The notes below the pieces were generated by a model. It did not search any database, had not been told where the DNA came from, and was given only the letters and a program-made list of their open reading frames with translations. A program made the translations under genes and the position numbers. 64,000 nt of DNA from Leptospirillum sp. (GTDB lineage: Bacteria > Nitrospirota > Leptospirillia > Leptospirillales > Leptospirillaceae). Every line of letters starts with the position of its first letter. Within the stretch, counting starts at the first letter, position 1. Of this stretch, positions 13,284 to 34,475 are shown piece by piece. The stretch covers positions 40,814 through 104,813 of the forward strand of contig DAHUYM010000004.1 in assembly GCA_027315205.1 (NCBI GenBank). Direction: 5' to 3'.

Positions 13284-13737
13284 TGCGGTCCCCCGGTGCG
13301 TTCTGGAAAGGCTAAAGCCGGGCGGAGTCTGGTGCCCGACGGGAATTCCCCGATGTACGCGCGAAGTCGATTTCATGCTACTCAGCATGCTTCACGAATG
13401 CAAGCTGATGGATCGAAGGATTTACCTTTTAAATATCGATACTTGGATCGAAGGTCAATAATCAAATTTGATTGGGGTATCGGTTTTTCCTTAAGGTATT
13501 TATCTTGTTTTATCATGTTTTATCATGAATGCGGTTTGTTTTATTGTATATAACTTCTATGTTCATAATGGATTGACTCTAATTAGATGTTTTTGTTGCC
13601 GCGGATTAAATCGGACGAGAGGGAATAAATGGGTCGACAGAGGGGTTGGCCGCCACTCGGGAGGGGAATTTAAGTGATTTTTGGGTCGCACGGAATCGAT
13701 CTGCATGTTATTTTCATGAAAATCGGATTTCCGGGGC
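13284..13737. other. AT-rich intergenic control region with repeats and palindrome
   Basis: About 450 bases between the divergent flavoprotein and glnA genes are much more AT-rich than their surroundings and hold no convincing gene. Visible elements are the 11-base direct repeat TGGATCGAAGG at 13409-13419 and 13444-13454, a perfect 14-base palindrome AATCAAATTTGATT at 13460-13473, and tandem TGTTTTATCA at 13506-13515 and 13516-13525 with a near copy at 13537-13546. These look like operators for one or both flanking genes. Confidence 0.55.
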
Positions 13738-15450: not shown

Positions 15451-17205
15451 CTAGGAGAGCCGGATTCCGAGATCCCTGAGCTGAACGGGGTCGACCGGGG
15501 CCGGGGCCTGGGTCAGGAGGCATGTTCCCTTCTGGGTCTTTGGGAACGCGATGACGTCCCGGATGGAATCGAGGCCCGCGAGCAACATCGCAAATCGGTC
15601 CAGGCCAAAAGCCATTCCAAGATGGGGAGGGGCTCCGTAGCCCAAAGCGTCGAGAAGGAATCCAAACCGTTCTCGGGCTTTTTCCGGGGAGATGCCGATC
15701 TTCTGGAACAGTTTTTCCTGGATGCGGGGATCGAAATTGCGGACGCTTCCTCCGCCCAGTTCGGTTCCGTTCAAGACAAGGTCGTAGGCTTGGGAACGGA
15801 CCGAAAGGGGATCCGATTCGAGGAGGGGTAGATCTTCCGGTTTCGGGGCCGTGAAGGGGTGATGGAGGGCCTCGAGCCGGTTTTCGTCTTCGTTCCATTC
15901 GAAAAGGGGAAAATCGACAACCCACAGGAGAGCGTGCGAGCCGTGGGGTCGAAGTCCGAGTGCGTCACCGATCTTGAGCCTGAGCTGTCCGGTCACCTTA
16001 CGGGCGAGGTCGGTCTTGTCGGCCACGAACAGGAGCAAATCTCCCGGGATGGGTTCCAGGGCTTCGCGTATGCCGACCTGGGCTTCTTCGGGAATGAATT
16101 TAAGGATAGGGCTCTGGAACGTGTTACCTTCGACCTTGATCCAGGCCAGGCCCTTTGCGCCCTGATCGATCGCCCATTGGGTCAACTCATCAATTTCTTT
16201 CCGGCTTTTGAGGGCACCGTCGGGATACCGGATGCCAAGGACTTTTCCTCCCTGCGACACGACGTCCAGGAATACACGGAACTGGGTTCTGCCCGCGGTT
16301 TCTGTGATATCCCGGATGGGAAGCCCGAATCGAAGATCCGGCTTGTCGCTGCCGTATTTTTCCATGGACTCTTTGTGGGAGAGGCGCATGAAGGGTCGGC
16401 AGATCGCGACACCGGAAATGCGCTCGAAAACGGCCTGGATGATTCCTTCCATCAGGTAGAGGAACTGATCCATCGTGAGGAAAGAGGCTTCGATGTCGAC
16501 CTGGGTAAACTCCGGCTGTCGATCGGCACGGAGATCCTCGTCCCGGAAACACCGGGCGATCTGGTAGTACCGTTCCATCCCCCCCACCATCAAAAGCTGT
16601 TTGAAGAGCTGGGGAGATTGGGGAAGAGCGTAGAAGGATCCCCGGTCGAGCCTGGAAGGGACCAGGAAATCCCGTGCCCCTTCGGGGGTTGAACGGGTCA
16701 GGATGGGTGTTTCGATTTCCCAGAATCCCAGGTCATGAAGCAGGTTCCTGAGGACATGGGTCAGTTCGGTGCGGAGTTGCAGAGCCTCTTTAAGGGGAGA
16801 CCGGCGCATGTCCAGGTATCGATAGGTGAGGCGAAGCGTCTCGGAGACCTCTACGCGGTCATCTACCGGAAACGGAGGCGTGATGGAGGCGTTCAGGACC
16901 CGGATGTCCGATGCGCGGATTTCGATGGCACCGGTCGGCAGGTTCGGGTTCGCGGTGCCTTCGGGACGTTTCGAGATCATGCCGTGAAGCGATACGACCC
17001 ATTCGTCCCTGAGGGTTTTTGCAAGATCGGTCAGAATTGGGGTCGCTTCGGGATTCACGACGATCTGAACGATGCCTGAACGATCCCGGAGATCGAAGAA
17101 GAGAAGACCCCCGTGATCCCTTATAGATTGAACCCAGCCGGCAAGTGTGACGGGGGTGTCGACAGTCATCGTCGGAAGCTCCGAAATGGGATGGGAACGG
17201 TACAT
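15451..17205 (-). CDS. aspS: Aspartate--tRNA ligase
   Basis: Charges tRNA-Asp. The 584-residue class II synthetase has an N-terminal OB anticodon-binding fold (VTLAGWVQSIRDHGG), motif 2 RCFRDEDLRADRQPEF, a bacterial GAD insertion, GTELGGGSVR and motif 3 GLDRFAMLL. The ATG at 17205 has GGAG eight bases upstream within the rluB stop region; a GTG at 17214 overlaps the rluB stop. It is the last gene of guaB-guaA-rluB-aspS. Whether it is discriminating, or also makes Asp-tRNA-Asn, cannot be read from the sequence here. Confidence 0.95.
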   Translation of the reverse strand: MYRSHPISELPTMTVDTPVTLAGWVQSIRDHGGLLFFDLRDRSGIVQIVVNPEATPILTDLAKTLRDEWVVSLHGMISKRPEGTANPNLPTGAIEIRASDIRVLNASITPPFPVDDRVEVSETLRLTYRYLDMRRSPLKEALQLRTELTHVLRNLLHDLGFWEIETPILTRSTPEGARDFLVPSRLDRGSFYALPQSPQLFKQLLMVGGMERYYQIARCFRDEDLRADRQPEFTQVDIEASFLTMDQFLYLMEGIIQAVFERISGVAICRPFMRLSHKESMEKYGSDKPDLRFGLPIRDITETAGRTQFRVFLDVVSQGGKVLGIRYPDGALKSRKEIDELTQWAIDQGAKGLAWIKVEGNTFQSPILKFIPEEAQVGIREALEPIPGDLLLFVADKTDLARKVTGQLRLKIGDALGLRPHGSHALLWVVDFPLFEWNEDENRLEALHHPFTAPKPEDLPLLESDPLSVRSQAYDLVLNGTELGGGSVRNFDPRIQEKLFQKIGISPEKARERFGFLLDALGYGAPPHLGMAFGLDRFAMLLAGLDSIRDVIAFPKTQKGTCLLTQAPAPVDPVQLRDLGIRLS

Positions 17206-17210
17206 TGGGA

Positions 17211-18854
17211 TCACTCCGTGGGCTTTTTTCTGGACGGTCCTTTGGGACGGTTGGATCCAGAAGGTTTACGACCAACGGACCCGGTGCGGGACTTTTCGTT
17301 GGATCGGGGGGGGCGTTCGGTTTGTTGTGAAAAGGACCGTGAACGTCTTTGGCCGGTGGGATCGGAACGTTTTTCTTTGTCACGGGACGGGACCGAATCG
17401 TGGTCCCGGCGGAAGGGTTTTTCTTCGGGGGAGGCGTTGTCCCTTCGTAACCCGGAACGGGCACCGGGAGCCCTTTCCCGGAACCGGGGCGCGGAGCCGG
17501 AATCGGGTCGTCTTTCCCTGTCGCGGGACGGGACCGAATCGCGGTCCCGATGGAACGCTTTCTCTTCCGCGGAAGCCCTTCGAGGGGCGGAACGGGGACC
17601 GGAAGCCCTTTCCCGGAACCGGGGTGCGGAGTTGGAATCGGGTCGTCTTTCCCTGTCGCGGGGCGGGGCCGAATCGCGGTCCCGTCGGAAGGGTTTTTCT
17701 TCGGGGGAGGCGTTGTCCCTTCGTAACCCGGAACGGGGACCGGGAGCCCTTTCCCGGAACCGGGGTGCGGAGTTGGAATCGGGTCGCCGTTCCCTGTCGC
17801 GGGACGGGACCGGATCGCGGTCCCGATGAAACGCTTTCTCATCTGGGGAAGCCCTTCGAGGGGCGGAACGGGCACCGGGAGCCCTTTCCCGGAACCGGGG
17901 CGCGGAGTCGGAATTGGGTCGCCGTTCCCTGTCGCGGGACGGGACCGAATCGCGGGCGGGTATTGGGGGCACACGGTTTCGTCTTGGATATTCCCGGCTC
18001 TCACCGGAATCGGATCTCGGGGTTCTCGTGGTGGTTTGGCCTGTTCTTTCACGGGAAGAGGAAGGCCGTTTTCGGGGTTCAGAAGGTCGCCCTGAAAGTA
18101 GCGTATCGATTTCCGCGGAGGTTACCAGACGGTACTCGCCGGGTTCCAGACCCGAAAGGTCGAGACTCCCGAAAGCGATCCGGGTCAGTTTCAGGACGAA
18201 ATACCCCAGGGCTTCGAAAAGCCGCCGTACTTCACGGTTCCGTCCTTCCGTGAGAGTGATCCTGTACCAGGTGTTGGTCTGAGTCACCCGTTCGAGTTCC
18301 AGTTCGACGGGTTCCACGGCCCTTCCTTCCAGCCGGACCTTTCCCGTCCGGAATCGTTCGAGGTGGTTTTCGGTCACGACTCCCTGGATCTTGGCGAGGT
18401 AGGTTCTCCGGATCGCAAAGCGCGGGTGAAGGATGCGTTGGGCTAAATCGCCATTGTTGGTCAATAGGAGAACGCCCTCGGACTGGAAATCCAAACGTCC
18501 GACATGGATAAGGGGAGATATGGCGGGAAAGAATTCCCGGAGGGTCGGTTTTCCGTCCGGATCGTGCAAGGTGGAAACGATGCCGCGCGGTTTGTAGAAG
18601 AGAAAGAGGAACGGTTCGGGCTCATGAGGAAGAGTGCGCCCTTCCACGGAAACGGTATCTTTTTCCGGGTCGACCTTTGTGCCCGGTGTGGTCACCACGT
18701 CTCCGTTGACGCGGACAAGACCCCCTTGGATCATGAGTTCCGCATTGCGCCGGGACGCGAGTCCCCTGTGGGCGATAAGCTTCTGAAGTCGGACTCCGGT
18801 GTCGGTTTCCCCGGCATTGTCGGGAGGTGTCTCGGGCGGTAACGAAGTGGACAT
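17211..18854 (-). CDS. rluB: 23S rRNA pseudouridine synthase RluB family with long repetitive Arg-rich tail
   Basis: An S4 domain (VRLQKLIAHRGLASRRNAE) is followed by an RsuA/RluB catalytic domain with HVGRLDFQSEGVLLLTNNG, containing catalytic Asp, and GRNREVRRLFEALG. From about residue 260 to the end at 547 the protein is low complexity, rich in Arg, Ser, Pro, Asp and Glu, and built of tandem repeats. Start is the ATG at 18854 with GGGAG upstream, three bases after the guaA stop. Enzyme role: pseudouridylation of 23S rRNA (U2605 in E. coli RluB). The tail is probably disordered and may bind RNA or ribosomes; it may also be dispensable. Confidence 0.9.
   Translation of the reverse strand: MSTSLPPETPPDNAGETDTGVRLQKLIAHRGLASRRNAELMIQGGLVRVNGDVVTTPGTKVDPEKDTVSVEGRTLPHEPEPFLFLFYKPRGIVSTLHDPDGKPTLREFFPAISPLIHVGRLDFQSEGVLLLTNNGDLAQRILHPRFAIRRTYLAKIQGVVTENHLERFRTGKVRLEGRAVEPVELELERVTQTNTWYRITLTEGRNREVRRLFEALGYFVLKLTRIAFGSLDLSGLEPGEYRLVTSAEIDTLLSGRPSEPRKRPSSSRERTGQTTTRTPRSDSGESREYPRRNRVPPIPARDSVPSRDRERRPNSDSAPRFRERAPGARSAPRRASPDEKAFHRDRDPVPSRDRERRPDSNSAPRFRERAPGPRSGLRRDNASPEEKPFRRDRDSAPPRDRERRPDSNSAPRFRERASGPRSAPRRASAEEKAFHRDRDSVPSRDRERRPDSGSAPRFRERAPGARSGLRRDNASPEEKPFRRDHDSVPSRDKEKRSDPTGQRRSRSFSQQTERPPRSNEKSRTGSVGRKPSGSNRPKGPSRKKPTE
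17440..17990 (-). repeat. Tandem protein-coding repeats in the RluB tail
   Basis: The anchor CCCTTTCCCGGAACCGGGG (plus strand) recurs at 17471, 17606, 17747 and 17882, spaced 135, 141 and 135 bases. Units therefore alternate between 45 and 47 codons, and two neighbours form a 276-base higher-order unit present about twice. Each unit encodes RDRERRPDS, SAPRFRERA and an EEK(A/P)F(H/R)RDRD linker. All spacings are multiples of three, so copy-number change keeps the frame. Confidence 0.85.
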
Positions 18855-18856
18855 GT

Positions 18857-20464
18857 TTACTCCCATTCGATTGTGCTGGGGGGTTTCGGAGAAATGTCGT
18901 ATACGACGCGATTGACGCCACGCACTTCCGAAATGATCCGATGTGAAAGACGGCTCATGACGGTGTAAGGGATTTCCCCGACATCCGCTGTCATGCCGTC
19001 CTGACTCATGACCGTCCGTATGGCGACGACATTTTCATAAGTTCTCTGGTCCCCCATGACGCCGACGGACTGGATCGGGAGGAGAACGGCGAAGTATTGC
19101 CACAGGAGGGACGCAAGGGGTGTGCCGTCCAATTCTTCCCGGACGATCCGGTCGGCGTCCCGGACGATCCGGAGTCGTTCCGGAGTGACGGCTCCGATAA
19201 CCCTGATCGCGAGTCCCGGCCCTGGGAATGGCTGTTTCCGGATGAAGGAGTCGGGGAGACCGAGTTCTTTTCCAAGACGCCGGACTTCGTCCTTGAAGAG
19301 TTCCCTCAAAGGTTCGACGAGGGTGAACGGAAGGTTCTTGGGAAGTCCCCCGACGTTATGGTGGGACTTGATGACACTCGATGGACCCTTGTGGGACACA
19401 CTTTCGATCACATCCGGGTACAGTGTGCCCTGCGCCAGGAATCCCGACTTTTTCTTCCGTCGGGTCGCTTCTTTTCGAAAGATGTCGATGAATGTTTTCC
19501 CTATGATTTTTCTTTTGCGTTCCGGATCCCGCACTCCCTTGAGACGGTCGAGAAAAATCTTGCCCGCGTCGACGGGAAGGAGTGGAAGCGAAAGGGTCTT
19601 GAGATCCCGGACGATCTGCTCGGACTCTCCCGCACGCATAAGTCCGTTGTCGACGAAGATGGCCTGGAATCGTTTTCCCACCGCACGATGGCAAAGAAGA
19701 GCGGTGACTGTCGAATCGATTCCGCCCGAGAGGGCGCAGATCAAGTGATCCGAGCCGACGGTCGCGGCGATTTCTTCGACATGGCGATCGATATACCCCC
19801 CGAGTGTCCAGTTCGGACGGATCTGTGCGATTTCGGAGAGGAACGATCGAAGAAACTCCATCCCCTGAACCGTCTGGGTCACTTCCGGGTGGAACTGGAC
19901 GCCATATAGTCGGGATTTTTGGGATTCCATCGCGGCAAACGGGGTAGTGCGCGTGCTTCCGGTCACCCGGAAACCCGAAGGAAGCTTCAGGATCGTGTCT
20001 CCATGGCTCATGAGAACCGGACTCGAGTCGGGGAAGGCCTTCCAAGGGGTTCCCATACCTTTTTCGGGATGGAATCCTGTGACCCCGTATTCGCGGACGG
20101 CGGCGGCCTCGACCGATCCTCCCAGAGCATGAGCCATGATCTGCATTCCGTAACAGATGCCCAGGACGGGGACCCCGAGTTTCAGGACATCGGGATCGAG
20201 GGCGGGAGCGTCGTGTTCAAAGACCGACGCCGGTCCTCCGGAAAGGATCAGGGCCCTGGGGCGACGTTTCTTGATTTCGGAGAGTTTCACGTCGTGAGGG
20301 ACGATTTCGGAATAGATTTCGAGTTCTCTGACGCGCCGGGCGATATTTTGGGTCAGTTGGGAACCGAAGTCCAGGATGAGGACCGGATCGGGCATCTGAT
20401 GGGGCATGGCTGGGCCGTTCGCCTGATGAGAGTCGTGTGGTTGTTGTCGGGAATGTGCCGTCAC
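18857..20464 (-). CDS. guaA: GMP synthase (glutamine-hydrolysing)
   Basis: Converts XMP to GMP using glutamine and ATP. The 535-residue protein has an N-terminal glutaminase with Cys in GICYGMQ near residue 104, an ATP-pyrophosphatase P-loop ALSGGIDSTVTALL, and the C-terminal dimerisation domain ending in KPPSTIEWE, typical of GuaA. The GTG start at 20464, 13 bases after the guaB stop, adds about 25 residues ahead of the conserved VLILDFGSQ; a later ATG near 20407 is possible but has no good ribosome site. Confidence 0.95.
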   Translation of the reverse strand: MTAHSRQQPHDSHQANGPAMPHQMPDPVLILDFGSQLTQNIARRVRELEIYSEIVPHDVKLSEIKKRRPRALILSGGPASVFEHDAPALDPDVLKLGVPVLGICYGMQIMAHALGGSVEAAAVREYGVTGFHPEKGMGTPWKAFPDSSPVLMSHGDTILKLPSGFRVTGSTRTTPFAAMESQKSRLYGVQFHPEVTQTVQGMEFLRSFLSEIAQIRPNWTLGGYIDRHVEEIAATVGSDHLICALSGGIDSTVTALLCHRAVGKRFQAIFVDNGLMRAGESEQIVRDLKTLSLPLLPVDAGKIFLDRLKGVRDPERKRKIIGKTFIDIFRKEATRRKKKSGFLAQGTLYPDVIESVSHKGPSSVIKSHHNVGGLPKNLPFTLVEPLRELFKDEVRRLGKELGLPDSFIRKQPFPGPGLAIRVIGAVTPERLRIVRDADRIVREELDGTPLASLLWQYFAVLLPIQSVGVMGDQRTYENVVAIRTVMSQDGMTADVGEIPYTVMSRLSHRIISEVRGVNRVVYDISPKPPSTIEWE

Positions 20465-29733: not shown

Positions 29734-31566
29734 TTGCCGGTATCGATCGATCGGGTTTCGGAGTATTTAGATCGACTTGAAGCCACGGCCGGAAGGCTGG
29801 AGATGGCTCGGATCCTGGGGGAACTCCTGGCCGAGCTGGATTCGGACGAGATCGAACCCGCCGTCTATATGGTCCAGGGCCAACTCGCCCCTCCTTTTCG
29901 GGGAGGCGAAATGGGCATGTCCACCAAGCTCGTCCTGCGCGCGATCGAACGCGCCCTCGAAGGGACGCGGGAAAAACCCGATACGCCGCTGCCCGAGCTC
30001 CTGGCCCGTGAGGGAGACCCAGGAACGCTCGCAGAACGTGTCTTCTCCCACCACAAGACATCCCACATCGATTTTGCGACCGTTTTTTCCGGTCTCAGGG
30101 CTCTCTCGGAGCTCGAAGGTCAGGGATCCCAAGACGACAAGATAGAAGCTCTTGCCGACCTATTCCGTTCTCTGTCCCCGCTTTCGTCCCGATTCGTGGC
30201 CCGATTCGTCGTCGGGCGCCTTCGCCTGGGGGTCGGTGACGCCACCCTGGTCGATGCAATGTCACGGCTGATCGGTACGAAAATCGCCAAGACAGAAATC
30301 GAAAAAGCCTACAATCTCTGTTCGGATCTCGGTCTTGTGGCGCGGATCCTGAAACAAGACGGGGTCGAAGGTCTTTCCGGACTCAAGCCCCGCCCCGGGT
30401 TCCCGATCCGGATGGCCTTGTGCGAACGACTGTCGTCCGGCGGAGAAATCTTCGAAAAAATCGGCCGTTGCGCGGTCGAAAGCAAATACGACGGATTCCG
30501 TTGCCAGGTTCATTGCTCGGAAGGAAAAATCCAGGTTTTTTCACGAAACCTCGAAGAGACGACGGCGATGTTTCCCGAAATCGTCGAGGCGGCAGGATCT
30601 CTCTTCGGGAACCGTTCCGCCATCTTCGAAGGGGAAGCCCTTGGGTATAATGCGAAGACCGGAGGATTTTTCCCGTTCCAGGTGACTATCACCCGGAAGC
30701 GCAAGCACAACGTTCTCGAAAAATCCCAAGAAATCCCGCTGAAGGCGCTGATTTTCGATCTCCTGTACCTGGACGGGGAGAGTTGGTTGTCCCGGCCCTT
30801 CGAAGAAAGGCGGAAGAAGCTCGAGTCCCTTTTTCCCTCGCATCATTTCGCCGTTGAAGAGCGCGAGAACGCGCCGCGCGGCGTGTTCGGGACGTCCCGT
30901 CTTATAATGGCCGATCATCCGTCCGTTATCGACGAGTTTTTCGACGAGGTTGTCGAGGAGGGCTTCGAAGGCATCATCGCCAAGCGTCTTCCGGGGGTCT
31001 ATACAGCCGGTTCCAGGAACTTCAACTGGATCAAGCTCAAGAGAAGTTACCGGGAGGGGTTGTCCGACACGCTCGACCTCGCCCTGATCGGGTATTATCG
31101 TGGTAAGGGGCAAAGGACACGACTGGGAATCGGTGCGGTTCTGGCCGCGGCGTACGATGCGGAGCGGGATGTGTTCGTTTCCATCGCCCGGATCGGTTCC
31201 GGGCTGACCGAGGAAAACTGGGTGGCCCTCCGGGAGATGCTCGAAGAAATCCGGGCGGACGCACCTCCCCCCAATGTGTCGAGCGGAGTCGAACCGGATT
31301 TCTGGGTTCTTCCGCGTTTCGTCGTGACGGTGCGTGCGGACGAGATCACCCGATCTCCGACCCATGCGTGCGGAAAAACCGAAACCGAGGAAGGATACGC
31401 TCTCAGGTTCCCCCGGATGGTCTCCATGGTCCGCGCCGACAAGAGGCCCGCAGATGCGACGACTGTCGCGGAGATCCGGGGCCTTTACAAGCAGCAGAGG
31501 GAAGCCACTTCGGGTGGAGGGAAAACCCTTAAATCGAAACGGACATCGGACAGGCCGGAGGAATGA
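29734..31566 (+). CDS. ATP-dependent DNA ligase, archaeal/eukaryal-type architecture
   Basis: Seals DNA nicks via a ligase-AMP intermediate. The 610-residue protein has an N-terminal DNA-binding domain (about 1-220), an adenylation domain with motif I ESKYDGFR (nucleophile Lys251), motif EGEAL, GFEGIIAKR, WIKLKRSY, and an OB-fold C domain. Length and lysine position match archaeal Lig1 rather than bacterial LigC/LigD. TTG 29734 preceded by GGAGGAG is preferred to GTG 29704. First gene of ligase-hsp20-lon-nth. Bacteria normally use NAD-dependent LigA for replication, so this is probably a repair enzyme. Confidence 0.9.
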   Translation: MPVSIDRVSEYLDRLEATAGRLEMARILGELLAELDSDEIEPAVYMVQGQLAPPFRGGEMGMSTKLVLRAIERALEGTREKPDTPLPELLAREGDPGTLAERVFSHHKTSHIDFATVFSGLRALSELEGQGSQDDKIEALADLFRSLSPLSSRFVARFVVGRLRLGVGDATLVDAMSRLIGTKIAKTEIEKAYNLCSDLGLVARILKQDGVEGLSGLKPRPGFPIRMALCERLSSGGEIFEKIGRCAVESKYDGFRCQVHCSEGKIQVFSRNLEETTAMFPEIVEAAGSLFGNRSAIFEGEALGYNAKTGGFFPFQVTITRKRKHNVLEKSQEIPLKALIFDLLYLDGESWLSRPFEERRKKLESLFPSHHFAVEERENAPRGVFGTSRLIMADHPSVIDEFFDEVVEEGFEGIIAKRLPGVYTAGSRNFNWIKLKRSYREGLSDTLDLALIGYYRGKGQRTRLGIGAVLAAAYDAERDVFVSIARIGSGLTEENWVALREMLEEIRADAPPPNVSSGVEPDFWVLPRFVVTVRADEITRSPTHACGKTETEEGYALRFPRMVSMVRADKRPADATTVAEIRGLYKQQREATSGGGKTLKSKRTSDRPEE

Positions 31567-32021: not shown

Positions 32022-34475
32022 ATGGCCGACAACTCCATTCCGACTCCGGAGGAAGCGCCGATCGTCATTTTGCCCGAGGCGGTGGTCTTTCCCCACATTC
32101 TTACGTCTCTGGCGTTTCACGATGCGAAGGCCCTGGCGGCGATCGACGAAGCGATGAACCGGGATCCCAAGACTCTGGTGTGCGTCGCCGTTCGTCCGCA
32201 GGAGGTCTCTGAGAACGGGGAAGGGCTCCCGGTTCCCGAGGGGCCCCCGATGTCCGGGAGGATCTACAGGACCGGAACAATGGTTGTGATTCACAAGCTC
32301 CTCCGGATTCCGGCCGGCGGAGTGGCCATTATGGTCCAGGGGTACCGCCGGGTGAAGATCAAGGACATCCTGTCCGAGGACCCGATGTTCCGTGCACGGA
32401 TAGAGGCCGATCCCGAGAAGGAGGAAAAGAGCGAGACGGTCGAGGCCCTGATGAGAACCATCCTTGGGCAGGTGAAGAAACTCTCTTCCATGGCCCCCTA
32501 CCTTCCAGACGAATTCGAGACGATGGCGTTGAATATCGACAATCCCCATCATCTGACCTATCTGGTCGTGACGTTCTTGAAGGTGTCCATCCAAGAGCGG
32601 CAAAAACTCCTCGAGACCGACTCCGCCGAAGAAAAGCTGATGTCTCTGGCAAGCCTCCTCGAGCGGGAGATCGAGCTTCTCGAACTGGGCGGCAAGATCA
32701 AATCGAAGATCCAGGACGAGGTCCAGAAGAGCCAGCGGGATTTCTTCCTCCGGGAGCAGGTGAAGGCGATCCAGAAGGAGTTAGGTGCCGGGGCCGAAGG
32801 CGAGGAAGACATCGTCTTGTACCGTGAAAAAATCGCGGAAGCGGGATTCCCCCCGGACGTGCTCCGGGACGTGAACCGGGAACTGGACCGGCTTGTACGG
32901 CTCGGGAGCGGACAGTCCCAGGAGGCCGGGGTCATCCGGAGCTATCTCGACGTCGTGCTCGATCTTCCCTGGAACAAGGAGTCACCTGACCATTTCGACC
33001 TTGCACGGGCCAAACGGATCCTCGACGAAGACCATTACGACCTGGAGAAGATCAAGGAGCGCATCCTGGATGAACTGGCCATTCATTCCCGGGTCAAGGA
33101 CGGCGTCTACCGGGGCCCCGTCCTCTGTTTCATCGGCCCGCCGGGGGTCGGAAAAACCACTCTGGGGCAGTCCATCGCCCGAGCGATGGGCCGTGAGTTC
33201 ATCCGGGTCTCGCTGGGAGGCGTCCGGGACGAGGCAGAGATCCGCGGCCATCGCCGGACGTACGTCGGGGCCATGCCGGGCCGCATCATCCAGGGGATGC
33301 GCAAGGCCGGTACGAAGAATCCGGTGTTCATGCTCGACGAAATCGATAAAGTTGGGGGAGACTTCCGGGGGGATCCGGCATCGGCCCTTCTGGAAGTTCT
33401 GGATTTGGCGCAGAACAAAGATTACCGGGATCACTACCTCGATTTGCCTTTCGACCTGTCGAAGGTGCTTTTCATTACGACGGCCAACGTCTTCCAGACG
33501 ATCCCCCCGCCGCTCCTGGACCGGATGGAACTTATCCGGCTGGCGGGATACACGTGGGAGGAAAAGCGTCACATCGCCCGGCAGTACCTGATCCCTCGGG
33601 TGATGAAGGAACTCAGGCTCGAACCCGGGGAGTTCGAACTTACCGAAGGAGCGCTCTTCCGGCTGATACGTGAATTTACCCGGGAAGCGGGCGTCAGAAG
33701 CCTGGACCGGAAAATCGCGACCCTCCTCCGGAAGATCGTCCGAGCCCGGATCGACCAGAAGCGTTCCCGGAAAATCGTTGTTCACGACAAGGATCTCGAA
33801 CGCTACCTCGGGAACGAGTTCATGGAGCCGGAGAAGAGTCTGGAAGGTGCGGCACCCGGTGTCGTGACGGGTCTCGCCTGGACGCCGAACGGAGGCGACG
33901 TCCTCTTTATCGAGTCCGTCGCAATCCCTGGAAACAAGGGGTTCATCCTCACCGGCCAGCTGGGCGACGTCATGAAGGAATCGGCCCGTACCGCCCTTTC
34001 GTTCGTGCAGTCTCGCATCGACAGGCTGGGGATCCCGAAGGATTTCTTCGCCAGGAACGAGCTCCACATCCACGTTCCGGGTGGGGCGATCCCAAAGGAC
34101 GGACCGTCCGCAGGAATCACGATGACGACCGCGATCGCGTCGCTTGCGACCGCCCGGACCGTTCTCCCGTCGATTGCCATGACGGGAGAGATCGCGCTGT
34201 CCGGCCGAATCCTTCCGGTGGGAGGAATCAAGGAAAAGCTGATCGGGGCCCGGGAAGCCGGAATACGGGAAGTCTATATTCCCACGAAGAACGAGAAGGA
34301 TCTGGAAGAGATTCCCGCCGAGGTCCGAAAGGACCTCAAGGTCCATCTCGTCGACCACATGGACACGCTTCTCGAAACGTTCTTCCCGGCGGTCTCGCCG
34401 GCTCCGGTTTCGCGCGGTCGCTCGAAAGCGGGCAAAGGGTCTTCCCGCCGCGGGAAATCGTCGCGCAAGCCATGA
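32022..34475 (+). CDS. lon: ATP-dependent protease Lon
   Basis: Degrades misfolded and regulatory proteins. The 817 residues comprise an N-terminal LON domain (ILPEAVVFPHILTSL), coiled region, AAA module with Walker A GPPGVGKTTLG and Walker B VFMLDEIDK, and C-terminal serine protease with Ser in KDGPSAGITM (about 696) and Lys in VGGIKEKL (about 738). A Lys/Arg/Ser-rich tail ends the protein. Overlaps nth as ATGA. Directly follows hsp20, giving a proteostasis pair. Confidence 0.95.
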   Translation: MADNSIPTPEEAPIVILPEAVVFPHILTSLAFHDAKALAAIDEAMNRDPKTLVCVAVRPQEVSENGEGLPVPEGPPMSGRIYRTGTMVVIHKLLRIPAGGVAIMVQGYRRVKIKDILSEDPMFRARIEADPEKEEKSETVEALMRTILGQVKKLSSMAPYLPDEFETMALNIDNPHHLTYLVVTFLKVSIQERQKLLETDSAEEKLMSLASLLEREIELLELGGKIKSKIQDEVQKSQRDFFLREQVKAIQKELGAGAEGEEDIVLYREKIAEAGFPPDVLRDVNRELDRLVRLGSGQSQEAGVIRSYLDVVLDLPWNKESPDHFDLARAKRILDEDHYDLEKIKERILDELAIHSRVKDGVYRGPVLCFIGPPGVGKTTLGQSIARAMGREFIRVSLGGVRDEAEIRGHRRTYVGAMPGRIIQGMRKAGTKNPVFMLDEIDKVGGDFRGDPASALLEVLDLAQNKDYRDHYLDLPFDLSKVLFITTANVFQTIPPPLLDRMELIRLAGYTWEEKRHIARQYLIPRVMKELRLEPGEFELTEGALFRLIREFTREAGVRSLDRKIATLLRKIVRARIDQKRSRKIVVHDKDLERYLGNEFMEPEKSLEGAAPGVVTGLAWTPNGGDVLFIESVAIPGNKGFILTGQLGDVMKESARTALSFVQSRIDRLGIPKDFFARNELHIHVPGGAIPKDGPSAGITMTTAIASLATARTVLPSIAMTGEIALSGRILPVGGIKEKLIGAREAGIREVYIPTKNEKDLEEIPAEVRKDLKVHLVDHMDTLLETFFPAVSPAPVSRGRSKAGKGSSRRGKSSRKP

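Follow-up and report, generated by a model that had tools for sequence, protein, structure and literature searches.

Results

Organization of the rluB locus

An rluB-type pseudouridine synthase gene occupies the reverse strand of the window (the whole 64,000-nucleotide stretch of Leptospirillum DNA that was analyzed), and its product joins a two-domain enzyme core to a long C-terminal tail (Table 1). The gene order is operon-like, guaB-guaA-rluB-aspS, and was kept in L119, the relative whose sequence extends far enough to show it; the flanking parts found in other relatives were consistent with it. The second ATG of rluB, with GGGAG 5 nt upstream, is the more likely start. At the other end of the gene, a Shine-Dalgarno-like GGAG of aspS (17214-17217, reverse strand) falls inside the last two rluB codons, where it is placed as the aspS ribosome-binding site and might limit changes to the tail's end. 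Because the rluB stop and this GGAG lie just before the aspS ATG, frameshifts in the repeat array described below would be expected to disturb aspS translation as well.

Table 1. Features of the rluB locus, in window coordinates.
Feature	Position	Strand	Remarks
aspS	15451..17214	-	Downstream neighbor of rluB; ATG at 17205 is the probable start, 5 nt past rluB stop
rluB-type 23S rRNA pseudouridine synthase gene	17211..18866	-	551 aa from first ATG; ATG at 18854, the probable start, gives 547 aa
Nearly acid-free basic C-terminal cap, last 25 residues	17214..17288	-	Final codons carry aspS GGAG
In-frame tandem array, arginine-enriched mixed-charge	17357..17955	-	45/47-residue units; 92-residue (276-bp) higher-order unit
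Unique linker, core to repeats	17958..18098	-	
Pseudouridine synthase catalytic domain, residues 88-219	18210..18605	-	GRLD with catalytic Asp; PF00849 E 6.8e-17; TIGR00093 E 1.9e-48
S4 RNA-binding domain, residues 25-68	18663..18794	-	Pfam PF01479 E 3.6e-12, 46.2 bits; AlphaFold2 pLDDT ~90 or more
guaA	18857..20464	-	Upstream neighbor of rluB in operon-like order

The core places the protein in the RluB/RsuA family: an S4 domain and the GRLD catalytic motif, which is invariant in the alignment, are both present, and TIGR00093 scored 164.3 bits against a curated cut-off of 109.3. RluB was the best-scoring of four named enzymes (PRK10700, 134 bits), below the cut-off of 290 of that equivalog model, which is tuned to enterobacterial RluB. 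The identification as RluB made in an earlier, sequence-only reading of this DNA is thus upheld, in the sense of an RluB-type enzyme. The closest solved structure is that of E. coli RluB (PDB 4LAB/4LGT, 9CL9; phmmer E 5.1e-35), which uses its S4 and catalytic domains on the U2605 stem-loop close to the peptidyl-transferase center (PMC3919597). U2605 is the putative target site of the Leptospirillum enzyme. The second, RsuA-type paralog found in the family has open frames of 256-326 aa and, as judged by those frames, no such tail.

Anatomy of the tail

The non-catalytic part starts near residue 257 (~18098) and continues for ~295 residues, roughly matching the enzyme proper in length. A tail of 285 residues had been described previously; it is real and forms about half of the protein, and its beginning has to be moved slightly upstream. 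It is a three-part structure of linker, mixed-charge body, and basic cap. The tandem repeats, which had been credited with about half of RluB, are restricted to ~200 residues (36% of the protein) between the unique linker and the unique basic C-terminus, and it is the tail as a whole that accounts for half. Tandem Repeats Finder identified one array in the gene with periods of 135 and 276, the latter having 2.2 copies, a 90% match, and no indels, and the spacing of direct repeats alternates between 141 and 135 (47 and 45 residues), in agreement with the in-frame 45- and 47-residue repeats and 276-base higher-order unit originally proposed. At a lag of 92 residues the identity of the tail with itself was 0.50, so far above that of shuffled sequences (mean 0.14, maximum 0.20, n = 1000) that chance is excluded as an explanation for the repeats. 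Elsewhere in the window, short low-score tandem repeats with periods of 10-12 nt occur at 13499-13527, 30925-30961, and 32855-32881.

A charge-hydropathy plot put the tail on the disordered side. AlphaFold2, supplied with aligned relatives of which none aligned to the tail itself, returned a core with pLDDT mostly 85-97 and a tail with pLDDT 37-53, all of it coil. With its low hydropathy and lack of predicted structure the tail has the properties of an intrinsically disordered region, and the disorder prediction suggested in the sequence-only reading thus gave the same result by composition and by AlphaFold2.

Mixed charge rather than RS chemistry

The RFRER, RDRER, and SRDRE runs that had led to the tail being called RS-like are present, but the dipeptide counts do not bear the name out. 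In plants, the definition of an RS domain asks for 50 residues or more in which consecutive RS or SR dipeptides bring the RS content above 20% (PMC8583155). RS/SR dipeptides cover 12% of the whole tail, which is the expectation from composition; the best 50-aa window reaches 24%, which is not above the composition expectation and is not made up of consecutive dipeptides, and an RSRS run occurs only once. Within a single 92-residue unit there were fewer RS/SR dipeptides than expected (3 versus 5.5), whereas RD/DR/RE/ER dipeptides numbered 19 versus 9.2 expected, a count reached in none of 1000 shuffles. Over the whole tail, RD/RE coverage was 21% against 14% expected (z 3.2), with a net charge per residue of +0.13. 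Moreover, no Pkinase (PF00069) match was found in the source genome, which is 99.9% complete, while 11 of 14 control genomes gave one. On the dipeptide counts and the absence of a Pkinase match we dropped the RS-domain label. The tail is instead a low-complexity, arginine-dominated sequence with interspersed aspartate and glutamate and a slightly positive net charge, which are the characteristics of arginine-enriched mixed-charge domains.

This chemistry recurs through the family (R 21%, S 16%, P 12%). The charged fraction of the family tails is 0.41 +/- 0.04 in the coding frame versus 0.16-0.33 in the five other frames, and only the coding frame is open in every member. A frame artifact or antisense gene was considered, there being long ORFs in other frames of the window, and was rejected, as those frames contain stops in some family members and the coding frame is never interrupted. 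In 16 of 17 family tails, charge mixing exceeded the average of the shuffles; in single short units from several relatives, it was not individually significant. Aromatic residues are few (3% in the Leptospirillum tail). In all 13 complete tails the last 25 residues contrast with the remainder: D/E make up 0.9% of the cap versus 17% of the mid-tail, and the net charge per residue is +0.29 versus +0.09.

Distribution and evolution of the tail

The taxon of the window comprises 21 genomes in five genera, a whole class in the collection used. The tail was present in 18 of 18 relatives with a readable orthologue, spanning five genera including the Leptospirillum source; one of these (L065) was counted as tailed on its first 33 tail residues, where the contig ends, and two incomplete drafts without an orthologue match (G009 and G015) fall outside the 18. 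The absence or dispensability of the tail in orthologues, which the sequence-only reading had named as grounds for refutation, is therefore not observed at sequence level. The 13 complete tails, that of the window included, are 163-621 aa long and rich in R, S, D, E, and P. Six of 19 family contigs (L058, L062, L065, L066, L071, and L072) stop inside the rluB tail, making the lengths there lower bounds; the repeats probably break short-read assemblies at this point.

Array periods in the family were 120, 123, 126, 135, 159, 165, 201, and 276 bp, all divisible by three, with one exception, a 16-mer scoring 53; by lineage, the units are 40, 41, 42, 53, 55, 67, and 92 residues long. Most units were no more similar between genera than shuffled controls. 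In the three genomes of genus g5 (L073-L075) Tandem Repeats Finder detected no array, and the tails are nevertheless of like composition, which suggests that the repeats are a way to grow the tail and not its essence. In ten species pairs pN/pS was 0.00-0.05 for the core and 0.35-0.56 for the tail, the latter being biased upward in the more distant pairs, where pS computed from uncorrected p-distances nears saturation. For the pair of 276-bp copies found in the window the ratio was ~0.8, close to neutral. These values fit weak purifying selection on the tail, with a constraint that appears to bear on composition more than on sequence.

We found no second protein with a related tail by sequence search of the source genome, and a DNA pattern search of that genome for consecutive RD/RE codons gave no match. 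Mixed-charge tails on other RNA enzymes were also considered and rejected: the DEAD-box helicase of the source genome (L127:1429-2775, G000:C11) has an RGG-type C-terminal tail, and its RNase E/G (L135) lacks a long tail.

Discussion

A disordered RluB tail is already known in kind, since E. coli RluB ends in a 40-residue stretch that was predicted to be disordered, was deleted for crystallization, and is poorly conserved between species (PMC3919597). The Leptospirillum protein resembles it in having the S4 and GRLD-containing catalytic domains followed by a predicted-disordered C-terminus, but has ~295 residues with tandem repeats and mixed charge in place of 40; what is new is the length, the composition, and the turnover. 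The titles, abstracts, and passages of the literature searched contained no report of long RluB tails.

We propose, with a probability of roughly 55%, that the tail is an expandable, flexible tether which holds the enzyme electrostatically to rRNA or pre-50S particles and whose cap is the main RNA contact. A short basic RluB C-terminus would have grown through successive in-frame tandem duplications into a disordered mixed-charge region, with an acid-free basic cap retained at its end, as an extended form of the E. coli-type C-terminal piece. Contacts of the cap, and transient ones of the repeat arginines, with rRNA in a polysome or in a 50S particle under assembly would increase the local concentration or residence of the enzyme there. 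Well-mixed acidic residues would keep so long a tail soluble and prevent irreversible sticking, leaving the body to serve as an adjustable and soluble spacer whose arginines make weak contacts; the near absence of acidic residues favors the cap as the likelier RNA contact. Tail length would be loosely set, allowing the repeats to expand and contract in frame. The proposal is supported by the presence of the tail in every readable orthologue, its coding-frame charge, array periods that remain in frame despite the turnover of units, and the between-species pN/pS, as well as by the universal basic cap, the coil prediction, the confinement of the tail to one paralog, and the E. coli precedent. It is weakened because E. 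coli RluB needs no more than its S4 and catalytic domains to act on a stem-loop (PMC3919597), mutual neutralization deprived alternating R/D peptides of affinity for neighboring molecules in vitro (PMC9324279), most RluB proteins of Nitrospirota and others have little or no tail, and the paired 276-bp copies of the window's array diverge nearly neutrally.

The last two of these points also suit the most credible alternative, to which we give a distinctly smaller though appreciable chance: that the tail is a tolerated passenger, an unconstrained C-terminus lengthened by recombination or slippage whose charge and frame are kept by codon bias and solubility alone, and which does nothing specific. 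A nearly four-fold variation in tail length between species is consistent with this, and retention of the frame has the further effect of safeguarding aspS translation. However, a mere passenger would be at odds with the tail's occurrence throughout the family and on only one of two paralogs, with the constraint seen between species, with a charge-specific composition that the other frames lack, and with an acid-free cap in all complete tails.

It is less likely that the tail is a condensate-forming domain driving RluB and rRNA into bacterial ribonucleoprotein droplets. In human cells, arginine-enriched mixed-charge domains accumulate in nuclear speckles or go to nucleoli according to their patterning (PMC9324279), and in Bacteroides, Rho forms condensates with RNA by way of a disordered, charged region (PMC13269538). 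In vitro, however, phase separation was seen with blocky R/D peptides, which also took up RNA, and not with alternating ones (PMC9324279); the family tails are nearly all well mixed, and the Leptospirillum tail is poor in aromatics. Condensation may occur, but the well-mixed body does not of itself predict strong self-driven coacervation.

In chemistry the tail resembles the mixed-charge domains of eukaryotic speckle proteins such as SNRNP70 and NELFE: in the bacterial tails, too, arginine is the main basic residue (R/(R+K) 0.70-0.91), RD/RE pairs are enriched, and the net charge per residue is slightly positive (+0.03 to +0.16). Unlike them, the tail is bacterial, sits on an rRNA-modifying enzyme, has a lower charged fraction (~0.41), contains many serines and prolines, and carries a separate basic cap. 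The likeness implies no homology. A bolder idea, which we regard as unlikely, is that an arginine mixed-charge domain like those of speckle proteins arose independently in a bacterial lineage, attached to an rRNA-modifying enzyme. Selection would have acted on its composition and on the patterning of its charges, not on its sequence, and it would organize late 50S assembly as a nucleolus-like concentrating device.

We think it very improbable that the tail is a protein-protein adaptor recruiting a ribosomal protein or the RGG-tailed DEAD-box helicase, the existence of which in this genome would at least provide a candidate partner; a conserved short motif across genera was not seen, and for the most part the repeat units align no better than shuffles. 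RGG-type tails of bacterial helicases are themselves disordered basic C-terminal extensions of RNA enzymes, but they are glycine-rich and not of mixed charge. Control by serine phosphorylation, as in an RS-domain analog, is scarcely tenable, for the tail shares with SR proteins a high R and S content and short SRDRE-type runs, but its RS/SR dipeptides are at or below chance, it is accompanied by no RRM, and no kinase match was found in the genome.

Since every readable relative keeps a tail while the repeats change completely, it seems to be the overall chemistry of the tail that matters rather than its exact sequence. The ~19 orthologues form a natural series in which the core is near-invariant and the tails vary in length and repeats while keeping their composition and basic end, and this series offers a ready test of how disordered tails evolve in RNA enzymes and of whether composition alone functions in bacteria.

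In most RluB proteins across the phylum Nitrospirota little follows the core, and long tails of other composition occur in family f6 (L097-L101 and L103-L107), in genus g20 of family f10 (L108-L110, L124, and L125), and in family f17 (L112, L113, and L116). These resemble the Leptospirillum tail in being of low complexity, with repeats in some and an acid-free basic end in most (14 of 15 show the contrast), but they are G/P/R-rich or K/E/D-rich and built of different repeats, including K/E/D-rich repeats of the FDKTDKP type; by this comparison they are probably independent expansions. One draft genome (G091; 74% complete, 5% contaminated) carries both a tailed RluB in C134 (L107) and an untailed one in C101:1288-1986, reflecting either duplication or contamination.
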